From Alphaproteobacteria bacterium SO-S41 (GTDB lineage: Bacteria; Pseudomonadota; Alphaproteobacteria; Micropepsales; Micropepsaceae): a stretch of 64,000 nt of DNA. A model generated the notes under the pieces. That model worked only from the letters and a program-made list of their open reading frames with translations. It had not been told where the DNA came from and searched no databases. The DNA lies in NCBI GenBank assembly GCA_019670725.1, contig AP024629.1:2108001-2172000 (forward strand), read 5' to 3'. The position numbers were made by a program, and so were the translations under genes. Numbering within the stretch: position 1 is the first letter of the stretch; each line of letters opens with the position of its first letter. Below, piece by piece: positions 18,979 through 22,076 of this stretch.

Positions 18979-19006
18979 GCTTCAGCGACTTCGCTGCGAA
19001 ACAGGG

Positions 19007-19040
19007 AAGGGGCGGCTTTCGGGCCGCCCTTTTCGTTTGT
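19007..19040. terminator. Terminator at the end of the ribosomal cluster
   Basis: GGGCGGC and GCCGCCC form a 7 bp GC stem, extendable by AAG/TTT, with loop TTTCGG followed by TTTTCGTTT. It lies between rplQ (+) and a convergent membrane-protein gene (-), which ends at 19048. It is a strong rho-independent terminator for the plus strand. The minus-strand tail is less T-rich. Confidence 0.85.
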
Positions 19041-19047
19041 GCCGCGC

Positions 19048-19875
19048 TCAGAGCCGATGCGCTTCCCAGCCTTCTGGAGCGGGCACTGGCAGGGCGTTGA
19101 AGTGCGCGTAGAGCAGCGAGACGTAGCTGACGAAGACCGTCGCCACGACGAATTCGGCGAGCAGCTGCAGGGCATCGTCGATGAAGAGGCCGGTCCCGTC
19201 CGGCCAGAGCGCGACGAAATAGCGGCCCGCCAGTCCGAGGACGATCGCGAGCAGCAAGGTCGTCGGCACCGTCACCTGGACCGTGCCGAGGAAGATCCGC
19301 CAGCCATTGCCGCGGGTGGCCCGCTCGGCGCTGACCAGCGTCGTCTGCCGGTCGCCGATGGCGATTGCGGGAAACACGAGAATGGCGCGCAGCACCAGCA
19401 TGCCGACGACAATGATGCCGACGAGCGCGATGAGATAGAGCAGGGGGCGGGACACCGTTCCGAACACGAGGCCGACGGTGAAACCGATCAACATCAAGAT
19501 CACGGCGAAGGTAAGTACGGTCAGCAGCCAGTAGCCAAGATAAGGCGGCAACGACGCGGCGGCCGAACGGTTGAGCGGCGTTATGCCGGCCAGCAGATCG
19601 CGATGACGCAGAACGGAGAATCCGGCGAGGCAGGCGGCCCTGATGACCACGGTGGCTGCGCCGTAGACGATGATGAATCCGTTGAGCCCGATCGTTCGCA
19701 CGAGAAAGCTCGTGAACGCCATGAAGCTCTCGTTGAGGAAGATCGGCCAGGCGGTCCAGGCCATCGCCGGCAGGCTCCAGAGCAGGATGGACGGAACAAC
19801 GCGCCAGAACCGATCAAAGGCAAAACCATAGGCGCGCCCGACATAGTCGGTGCCCTTCAGACTCGGCGCATCCAT
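19048..19875 (-). CDS. Multi-pass membrane protein of unknown function
   Basis: This is a 275-residue hydrophobic protein with about six predicted transmembrane segments (for example VVPSILLWSLPAMAWTAW, GFIIVYGAATVVIRAACLAG, LLTVLTFAVILMLIGFTVG, LLYLIALVGIIVVGMLVLRA). A cytoplasmic-looking stretch DRQTTLVSAERATRGNGWRI occurs before the last pair. The layout resembles uncharacterised integral membrane proteins with a repeated six-helix domain. No catalytic motif is seen, and I do not recognise the family with certainty. It is a single gene, convergent with rplQ. Confidence 0.8.
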   Translation of the reverse strand: MDAPSLKGTDYVGRAYGFAFDRFWRVVPSILLWSLPAMAWTAWPIFLNESFMAFTSFLVRTIGLNGFIIVYGAATVVIRAACLAGFSVLRHRDLLAGITPLNRSAAASLPPYLGYWLLTVLTFAVILMLIGFTVGLVFGTVSRPLLYLIALVGIIVVGMLVLRAILVFPAIAIGDRQTTLVSAERATRGNGWRIFLGTVQVTVPTTLLLAIVLGLAGRYFVALWPDGTGLFIDDALQLLAEFVVATVFVSYVSLLYAHFNALPVPAPEGWEAHRL

Positions 19876-19980
19876 TCAAGCCCCCGCTTGCTATCGCCGC
19901 AGCCCCCTACGCGCGATGGGAGGATACTGGCAGGGTGAGGCGCGCATGGCCAATGCGACGACGGGTCTCAGTGCCCGCCA

Positions 19981-20020
19981 AAAAAGAACGGAAAGGACAG
20001 CGGCCAGGCTGTCCTTTCCG
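19981..20020 (-). terminator. Terminator of the secreted repeat-protein gene
   Basis: CGGAAAGGACAGC and GCTGTCCTTTCCG form a perfect 13 bp stem with a 6 nt loop (19989-20020). On the minus strand it is followed by TTCTTTTTT. It lies 50 nt past the stop of the minus-strand gene at 20071, and supports real transcription of that small gene. Confidence 0.85.
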
Positions 20021-20070
20021 AGGTAGGCGGACCAGGTCTGGGGGACTAGGTGAGGCCCGGTCCACCGCCA

Positions 20071-20397
20071 TCAGTGGTTGCCGACGCCGCCACCGACCTT
20101 TGCATCGAGATCCAGCAGGCCGCCGCGACCGCGCTTGTCGGCGCCGACCTGGGCGTCGAGATCCACCAGCGAACCTTTGCCGCGGTTGTTGTTGAGCACG
20201 CCGACATTGAGGTCGAGCAGGCTGCCGCCGCGCGAATTGGAGTTGCCGACATTGGCGTCGAGATCGACGACGCTGCCGCGCTTGCCGACATTGAGGTCGA
20301 GACTGACAAGACCGCCGCGGCCGAATTCGCGACCGCCCGCAAAGCTGGTGCCGGCGAGGACAAGCGCCGCAGCGGCGATGAGGTAAATGCGCTTCAT
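20071..20397 (-). CDS. Small secreted protein with five GSLLDLDANVG-type repeats
   Basis: This 108-residue protein has a clear signal peptide (MKRIYLIAAAALVLAGTSFA, cleavage after Ala20) and a mature part made almost wholly of five imperfect units of about 17 residues. The cores are GGLVSLDLNVG (28-38), GSVVDLDANVG (41-51), GSLLDLNVG (58-66), GSLVDLDAQVG (75-85) and GGLLDLDAKVG (92-102), joined by Asn/Arg/Lys-rich linkers. The alternating hydrophobic/Asp pattern suggests short beta strands stacked as a solenoid or fibre, which is inference. AGGAG lies 7 nt before the ATG and a strong terminator follows. No cysteines are present. I do not recognise the family. It is divergent from the htrA-type protease gene. 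Confidence 0.85.
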   Translation of the reverse strand: MKRIYLIAAAALVLAGTSFAGGREFGRGGLVSLDLNVGKRGSVVDLDANVGNSNSRGGSLLDLNVGVLNNNRGKGSLVDLDAQVGADKRGRGGLLDLDAKVGGGVGNH

Positions 20398-20711
20398 GGT
20401 GTTTCTCCTGTTTACCCGCTTGGTGGGGCAATCCCGGATTGCAAGCGGGGGACCGGAAGCGCGCTAGGAAGAAAAGCGCGCAAATCCGCGGGCCTTTACC
20501 ATGCGGACTTGAATCCTATGTATTTTGCGGTGCCGGCTCGAGTCCATGAAATGCGTGTAATGGCGGGGGGCGTTACGCGATGGCACGGCGGGTGTGCCAT
20601 GGACGCGCACAGCCTTGGCCGGCCACATTAATTCGTCGTGACCTGATGCTGCACCGCACGACGGTGCGTTATAATTCCCATACCAGCTTTGTTCGTCTCC
20701 AGGATTGCACC
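20398..20711. other. Divergent intergenic region, repeat-protein gene / htrA-like gene
   Basis: This 314 bp region has no convincing gene. On the minus-strand side, CCCGCTTG (20415-20422) and CAAGCGGG (20442-20449) can form an 8 bp stem in the untranslated leader of the repeat-protein mRNA, just upstream of its ribosome binding site. On the plus-strand side is a perfect TATAAT box. A longer in-frame upstream reading of the protease (from 20580) is rejected in favour of the signal-peptide start. Confidence 0.5.
20647..20675 (+). promoter_or_regulatory. Candidate promoter of the HtrA-type protease gene
   Basis: A perfect TATAAT lies at 20670-20675, 36 bp before the start codon. The 17 bp-spaced -35 position reads TGCTGC, a poor match, so an activator or an alternative sigma factor may be involved. 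TATAAT is uncommon by chance in DNA of this base composition. Confidence 0.45.
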
Positions 20712-22076
20712 ATGCGGAATTGGTTTCTCCTTGCCCTCGCTCTCGCCGTGACGCCCGCCGCGGCGCAGGACGCAGCGCCGCCCAAGACCCAGGTCGAGCT
20801 CACCGCCACCTTCGCGCCGGTGGTGAAGCGGATCGCGCCGGCGGTGGTGAACGTCTACGCCAAGACGATCGTCCATAACCCCTATGCCGGCGATCCCTTC
20901 TACGAGGAGTTCTATGGGCCGCAGCAGGACCGCACGCAGAACTCGCTAGGCTCGGGCGTCATCGTGCGGCCCGATGGGCTGATCGTCACCAACAATCATG
21001 TCATCGACGGCGCCGACGAGTTGATCGTCGTGCTCTCCGACCGCCGCGAGTTCGAGGCGAAGGTGCAGGTCGCCGATGCCCGCACCGACATCGCGCTCTT
21101 GAAGATCGAAACCAATGGCGAGCAGTTGCCGACCTTGCCGTTCCGCGATTCCGACAGCGCCGAGGTTGGCGATCTCGTGCTCGCCGTCGGCAATCCGTTC
21201 GGCGTCGGGCAGACCGTGACGATGGGCATTATTTCCGCTGTCGCGCGCACCAATGCCGGTATCTCGGACTACCAGTCGTTCATCCAGACCGACGCCGCAA
21301 TCAATCCCGGCAATTCCGGCGGCGCGCTCGTGACGGCGGACGGACAGCTGATCGGCATCAACACGGCGATCTTCTCGCGCTCGGGCGGCTCGATCGGCAT
21401 CGGCTTCGCCATCCCCTCCAACATGGTCCGCGCAACGATCGACGGCGCGGGCACGGGCGGCAAGATCGCGCGCGCCTGGCTGGGCGCCGAAACGCAGGAG
21501 CTGACGCACGACATCGCGGCCTCGCTCGGCCTCGACCGGCCGCAGGGTGTGATCGTCCGTTCGATCTTCTCAGGCGGCCCGGCGGACAAGGCCGGGCTCA
21601 AGACCGGCGACGTCGTGATGAAGATCGACGGGTTCGAGGTGAACGACCCGCAGGCCGTGCGCTATCGTATCGCGACGGCGGGGCTCGGCAAGGTCGCGAA
21701 GCTGGAAGGGCCGCGCGACGGGACCTGGACGACCTGGAACGTCACGCTGGAATCCCCGCCCGATGGCGACCGCAAAACGATCACCATCGACGGCCGCAAC
21801 CCCATGGCCGGCGCGAAGGTCGCCAACCTGTCGCCCGCCTATGCCGATGAGCTGGGCATCGCCGACATGTCCGGCGTGGTCGTGCTCGACATCGACCGCC
21901 GCTCGCTGGCGCGCCGCTATGGGTTCCGTCCCGGCGACATCATCGCCAAGGTCAACGATGCCGAGACCGCCGACGTCGCAGCATTGGACGGCGCGCTGAA
22001 GGCCGGCGAGCGCAAGGGCTGGCGCATCGCGGTGAAGCGCGGCGGCGAAGTTCTGACGCTGGAAGTGTCGCCGTAG
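20712..22076 (+). CDS. Periplasmic Do-like serine protease (HtrA/DegP family)
   Basis: This 454-residue protease/chaperone is probably periplasmic. The signal peptide is MRNWFLLALALAVTPAAAQ. The trypsin-like domain has the triad His96 (NNHVIDG), Asp126 (ARTDIALL) and Ser202 (GNSGGAL). Two PDZ-like regions follow, the first around GVIVRSIFSGGPADKAGLKT and the second around GVVVLDIDRRSLARRYGFRP with GDIIAKVND. The length fits DegQ/DegP-type Do proteases. It ends TAG 22074-22076, overlapping the GTG start of rarA by one base. Its neighbour on the other strand is the small secreted repeat protein, a possible substrate by location only. Confidence 0.92.
   Translation: MRNWFLLALALAVTPAAAQDAAPPKTQVELTATFAPVVKRIAPAVVNVYAKTIVHNPYAGDPFYEEFYGPQQDRTQNSLGSGVIVRPDGLIVTNNHVIDGADELIVVLSDRREFEAKVQVADARTDIALLKIETNGEQLPTLPFRDSDSAEVGDLVLAVGNPFGVGQTVTMGIISAVARTNAGISDYQSFIQTDAAINPGNSGGALVTADGQLIGINTAIFSRSGGSIGIGFAIPSNMVRATIDGAGTGGKIARAWLGAETQELTHDIAASLGLDRPQGVIVRSIFSGGPADKAGLKTGDVVMKIDGFEVNDPQAVRYRIATAGLGKVAKLEGPRDGTWTTWNVTLESPPDGDRKTITIDGRNPMAGAKVANLSPAYADELGIADMSGVVVLDIDRRSLARRYGFRPGDIIAKVNDAETADVAALDGALKAGERKGWRIAVKRGGEVLTLEVSP

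Follow-up and report, generated by a model that had tools for sequence, protein, structure and literature searches.

A small, putatively exported five-unit repeat protein of an alphaproteobacterium, with short homologues and likely large glycine-rich relatives

The repeat gene and its locus

The window, by which we mean the whole 64,000-nucleotide stretch of Alphaproteobacteria bacterium SO-S41 DNA that was analyzed, contains a short open reading frame whose product begins with the features of a Sec signal peptide (K/R, a hydrophobic stretch, and S-F-A ahead of G-G), recognized by inspection only (Table 1). Homologous frames in two relatives, G044 (read on contig L013) and G133 (L019), keep the same strand and frame, and the first-pass annotation was right that the frame is real and that its product carries an export signal. 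It had also described the mature chain as free of cysteine, which the sequence bears out; the 88 mature residues include 21 Gly, 9 Asn, and a single aromatic residue, and their net charge is near-neutral.

Table 1. Features of the repeat gene, its neighbors, and the hfa locus of the same genome
Feature	Position	Strand	Remarks
Repeat-protein ORF	20071..20397	minus	108 aa; stop codon within coordinates
Putative Sec signal peptide, residues 1-20	20338..20397	minus	by inspection; two short homologues have similar N termini
Repeat core 1, LVSLDLNVG, residues 30-38	20284..20310	minus	
Repeat core 2, VVDLDANVG, residues 43-51	20245..20271	minus	
Repeat core 3, LLDLNVGVL, residues 60-68	20194..20220	minus	
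Repeat core 4, LVDLDAQVG, residues 77-85	20143..20169	minus	
Repeat core 5, LLDLDAKVG, residues 94-102	20092..20118	minus	GGGVGN tail comes next
Ribosome binding site AGGAG	20405..20409	minus	
Leader hairpin	20415..20449	minus	perfect 8-pair outer stem, CCCGCTTG/CAAGCGGG
Intrinsic-terminator-like site	19979..20020	minus	13-pair stem, then T-rich tail TTCTTTTTT
Do-family (DegP/HtrA) serine protease, divergent neighbor	20712..22076	plus	TIGR02037 over cut-off; PDZ/trypsin domains
275-aa membrane protein without family, neighbor	19048..19875	minus	G002 counterpart directly beside HtrA gene
hfaA-hfaB locus and HfaD-like gene, own genome	G000:C1 about 1549640-1552052 (L078:3641-6052)	minus	HfaB, HfaA over NCBIfam cut-offs

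Five 9-residue cores lie at spacings of 13, 17, 17, and 17 residues, and the tail behind the fifth recurs identically in G044 (GGGVGN) and nearly so in G133 (SGGVGL). A loose core pattern occurs five times in the protein, whereas 20,000 shuffles average 0.05 occurrences and never exceed 2, a comparison to be read knowing that both core patterns used were drawn up after sight of the window sequence. Self-similarity by lag, which is pattern-free, peaks at lag 17 (1.27) and lag 34 (0.59); the highest value in 300 shuffles, 0.58, falls short of the 17-residue peak. The description of the chain as five near-identical 17-residue units thus holds for the number of cores and for the period, but the 11-residue unit cores are 36 to 82% identical to one another and the first spacing is 13. 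At third codon positions the cores have drifted at least as far (identity 0.36 to 0.82, mean about 0.51), and, because the drift affects both residues and third codon positions, we take the array to be old rather than freshly duplicated. Divergence of the cores with the residue pattern kept suggests an old, selected repeat, for which this would be expected.

The ribosome binding site and the terminator announced by the first-pass annotation are both present; the 13-pair stem lies far above the minimum length, and terminator-like sites number 2 in 2 kb in our scan, compared with 1.5 in shuffles. The leader hairpin is likewise real, with its perfect outer stem, but the leader is no more stable than its shuffles (z -0.4). 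A sigma-70 scan of positions 19000-21000 gave no promoter-like site. The further expectation of high-level expression is not supported by codon use: the codon adaptation of the gene (0.574) is low-average, six of the 26 window genes being lower, and average codon usage reaches this value with a P of 0.35.

In G044 and G133, the leader of the repeat gene (L013:5750-5990 and L019:5560-5830, respectively) is conserved and folds stably (z -2.3 and -3.5); the ribosome binding site is predicted to be paired, and an upstream hairpin seems to preserve its pairing despite changes. We do not claim an RNA switch, because several ordinary genes likewise have paired ribosome binding sites, and the window leader is not stable beyond shuffles; no Rfam family was found at the leaders of L013, L019, L001, L059, or L054.

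A divergent HtrA-type protease gene does lie next to the repeat gene, as first noted, with a TIGR02037 match to confirm its identity; a link between the two is unsupported, because in a genome of the same genus (G002, contig L005) the HtrA gene directly adjoins the membrane-protein gene and the repeat gene is missing, and because the neighbors of the short homologues in G044 and G133 differ from those of the window gene. The protease is probably unrelated to the repeat gene. The G044 and G133 genes share a common genomic position, beside a gene for a FAD-dependent protein (its domain found in L013). An araD/IlvD-type dehydratase gene is present near the repeat genes of G133 (L010:2-919) and Sinorhizobium meliloti R11 (L059:1894-3633), and the two dehydratases are 39% identical over 252 residues; there is none among the neighbors read in G044 or the window, and coincidence is possible.

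Short homologues

A single-sequence search of 100 relatives returned one weak match besides the protein itself (G044, E 0.002), and a profile of the window and G044 proteins then found G133, which places the short exported version in 3 of the 96 genomes of the family, the window's own included. A three-sequence profile confirmed these three carriers, the order-level set consisting of the same 96 genomes. The G044 and G133 proteins (111 and 120 aa) also appear to be exported and end in the GGVG tail. Against the window protein they score 93 and 98, respectively; no score as high arose in 400 full shuffles or in 400 shuffles made separately for odd and even positions. A signal peptide, a mature chain of 88 to 99 aa, hydrophobic/polar 9-residue cores, and the GGVG tail are found in all three members, and on these sequence comparisons we regard the short family as established. 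G044 and G133 also match the window spacing in having 13 residues between the first two cores and 17 to the last core, where the G133 cores were located by pattern and the first G044 core, LLSALVNVG, missed by the pattern, was placed by eye. Self-similarity by lag gave no significant regular period in either homologue.

Beyond these carriers the short version is scarce. The repeat gene was matched in none of four same-genus genomes, and no paralogue appeared in the own or related genomes at E <= 10. Plasmids held no homologue with the window or G133 protein as query, viral contigs held none, and genome contigs held none with the window protein as query. Querying genome contigs with the alignment returned a single locus, L013 (Rhizobiales bacterium dw_265), which was rejected as an additional homologue, its protein being letter-identical to that of G044. 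Of 385 genomes sampled from the class, two matched, the own genome and G431 (E 0.0056), the latter dropped as the frame of a helix-turn-helix protein. Within the family, 26 of 96 genomes matched a unit profile at E <= 1, with 24 rows besides the three carriers; none of the 14 that were read is a short exported repeat protein. One unit-profile match, L038 in G045 (E 0.66), is an exported frame with stalk repeats of the GSLASLQALVG type and a C terminus that by eye resembles that of trimeric autotransporters.

The statement that the unit belongs to no named family agrees with searches of Pfam, NCBIfam, PHROGs, and PDB sequences, none of which gave a match above cut-off. Pfam had no match to the window protein at E <= 10; NCBIfam had one only, a lanthipeptide model (17.1 bits against a cut-off of 20, E 0.0074, over 10 residues); PHROGs and PDB sequences had nothing for the window protein. 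Among the three members together, PHROGs gave one weak match (E 0.17). Two PDB results were taken as chance: one chain that the three-sequence profile matched at E 0.55, and four glutamate dehydrogenases (E 0.49-0.98) matched by a profile of the large proteins described below. The literature searched offered no paper that could be tied to the window protein or to the related Sinorhizobium gene, for which the locus tag used may be wrong. The repeat family looks real and has no name in these libraries, but it is rare (3/96).

Large glycine-rich relatives

In the phylum sample, 9 of 398 genomes, the own genome among them, matched at E <= 0.05. Of the eight other rows, seven were dropped and one, G551 (E 0.023), was kept because its reading has several units and matches G044. 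G741, with a better E value (7e-4), was dropped as a frame opposite a MinD-like gene, and the remaining dropped rows, including G658 (E 0.007, also better than G551), show no second unit. The product of the G551 frame is an exported, glycine-rich protein of 407 aa, in which 21 of 32 aligned residues are identical to G044; none of 400 shuffles reaches the score of this comparison, and the same is true of the comparison with G133. In a direct comparison with the window protein, G551 stays within what chance gives: 3 and 13 of 400 shuffles score as high.

Around G551, 10 of 299 genomes gave a match, all within its genus; phages gave no homologue with the G551 domain as query. One of these ten large proteins is a fragment, and their common design comprises a glycine-rich region, a repeat region, a collagen-like stretch, and a conserved C terminus. 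The repeat region measures 128 to 193 aa in the seven that were aligned, and the short proteins for their part differ in spacing, which accords with the first-pass expectation of homologues differing in unit number. One large protein, L071, picked by eye among the ten, resembles the window protein significantly in direct comparison (score 93, reached by 0/1000 of both kinds of shuffle), and a profile-profile comparison of the short and large sets gave E 2.5e-5 (probability 75, 40 columns). In the reverse direction, a profile of the seven large proteins failed to match any family genome out of 96 at E <= 0.001, the three carriers being missed too. By these comparisons, the short family and the large proteins are likely linked.

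Like the window protein, the G551 group is exported and carries repeats, here of the GNIADVNANVLG-RRG-VKADVAVG / GLLDADARV type and variable in number. Unlike it, the complete members are about four times longer and have a long region of the GGAVSGVG type; on reading its sequence, the window protein has neither the collagen-like stretch (GGPGGPG) of the G551 group nor its conserved C terminus with Cys. Self-similarity by lag in two of the large proteins gave periods of 14 and 28-29, as against 17 in the window protein. The head repeats of YadA form a 14-residue beta-roll, and the large relatives have in common with them the 14-residue period, short strands, and Gly turns; the YadA family in Pfam matched neither the window protein, nor G551, nor the Sinorhizobium medicae protein described next, nor the repeats of the large proteins.

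The G551 repeat domain matches 62 plasmid records in Sinorhizobium, and the S. medicae protein as query matches 64, all Sinorhizobium; where annotated, these records read hypothetical protein. The S. medicae protein scores 191 against G551, a value that 0/400 shuffles reach, while its direct comparison with the window protein is not significant (11 and 101 of 400 shuffles reach the score), so that any link between the window and Sinorhizobium proteins would be indirect, running only through G551. The S. meliloti/medicae megaplasmid protein resembles the window protein in its signal peptide and alternating strands, which in Sinorhizobium are of the VNANV type with GG-S-R-G turns, and differs in its C-terminal domain with two Cys and in its period (14, with 28 as the second).

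Strands, disorder, and competing explanations

Our preferred reading, quite possible but tentative, is that the gene product, exported by Sec, is a chain of short beta-strands which assembles within the envelope or extracellularly. In this cysteine-free repeat protein each unit, nine residues of alternating hydrophobic and polar character ending in Gly, would form one short amphipathic beta-strand, with turns rich in Gly, Asn, Arg, and Lys between strands. The five strands may stack within one chain or between chains to give a beta-rich assembly, periplasmic or at the cell surface, whose role would be structural or that of a matrix. The window protein would then be the minimal, stand-alone form of a repeat that also occurs, at 14-residue spacing, in larger glycine-rich exported proteins, those of Sinorhizobium included. 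Strand formation, assembly, location, and function of the window protein are all matters that we infer.

Two AlphaFold2 models, each built from two sequences, bear on the strands. The full-length model (mean pLDDT 49.2) places strands at residues 30-36, 43-52, 59-71, 74-85, and 94-103, which are the units; the mature-only model (mean pLDDT 47.1) has no strand of 3 or more residues. The beta-solenoid, fibre, or coat proposed earlier is possible on these low-confidence models, which neither favor it nor speak against it, and a predicted disordered chain, which the first-pass annotation had named as counting against its proposal, is seen in part and at low confidence, in the mature-only model, while the full-length model has five strands. 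A Foldseek search with the pLDDT-49 model gave 254 matches, all with E above 0.001, and they were set aside. None of the three short proteins exceeds its shuffles in hydrophobic beta moment when the mature chain is taken as a whole: of 2,000 shuffles, 312 reach the value of the window protein, 538 that of G044, and 121 that of G133.

The mature-only model and the low confidence of both predictions also suit the strongest alternative, which we consider rather unlikely: a periplasmic, mostly disordered Gly/Asn-rich protein acting in stress, at the cell wall, or in ion binding, with the repeats as binding motifs rather than stacked strands. A composition in which Gly and Asn make up so much of a near-neutral chain points the same way, as does the finding that no exporter is conserved alongside the repeat gene. 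However, the hydrophobic/polar alternation in the 9-residue core is kept across the homologues, which is unusual for a disordered linker.

A functional amyloid like curli or HfaA, exported through the genome's own HfaB (CsgG-type) channel and working with a holdfast anchor, is improbable. Curlin and HfaA are similar in kind to the window protein, being small and Sec-exported with short repeated beta-strand units (predicted here for the window protein), and adjacent genes of the own genome encode HfaB (378.6 bits, cut-off 300), HfaA (85.6, cut-off 50), and, at 28 bits against a cut-off of 100, an HfaD-like protein, so that this organism has an outer-membrane channel of CsgG type. For Caulobacter, HfaA has been likened to curlins and amyloids, and HfaB has been presented as a putative translocon serving HfaA and HfaD (PMC6707917). 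On the other hand, the repeat gene is unlinked to hfaB, lying far from the hfa genes (2.13 Mb as against 1.55 Mb on C1); the window protein has no sequence similarity to the own HfaA and HfaD (936 and 502 of 1,000 shuffles reach the scores), and no curlin family in Pfam matched it. The sole standout among six such comparisons was G133 with HfaD, where 1 and 2 of 1,000 shuffles reach the score. No CsgG was found in G551 or in the carrier G133 (86% complete), and the best CsgG locus of G044, one of three and the one read, is by eye a different lipoprotein cluster. In that locus (L079:4649-7005), three lipoprotein-like genes lie next to one another and a CsgG domain is encoded by the first; by eye the context is not curli-like.

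A precursor cleaved into several short peptides, as a secreted signal or antimicrobial, is very improbable: five similar units, R/K in most linkers, the short length, and the sub-cut-off lanthipeptide match fit it, but Cys for lanthionine rings is absent, no modification, protease-export, or immunity gene was recognized among the immediate neighbors read (window, L013, L019/L010), and the linkers vary freely among homologues.

If the strand-forming reading applies, and the repeats do stack, an 88-residue chain built from five simple units would give a natural model of beta-repeat assembly on a very small scale. Small exported beta-repeat proteins are a known kind, and the window repeat, which comes in two size classes, seems not to have been described before; it adds a repeat family whose public records, where annotated, say "hypothetical protein." A broader proposal, slightly more doubtful to us than the disordered alternative, is that the window gene is the smallest and possibly self-assembling member of an unrecognized exported beta-repeat superfamily in the class, which would have five-unit chains at one end and large collagen-fused surface proteins at the other, take in the Sinorhizobium megaplasmid protein, and represent a new surface or matrix fibre repeat. 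The S. meliloti link makes a repeat protein of this kind testable in a tractable model symbiont. In S. meliloti R11, the repeat gene (L059:3814-4520) is apparently frame-shifted at both ends relative to strain 1021, through either decay or sequencing error.
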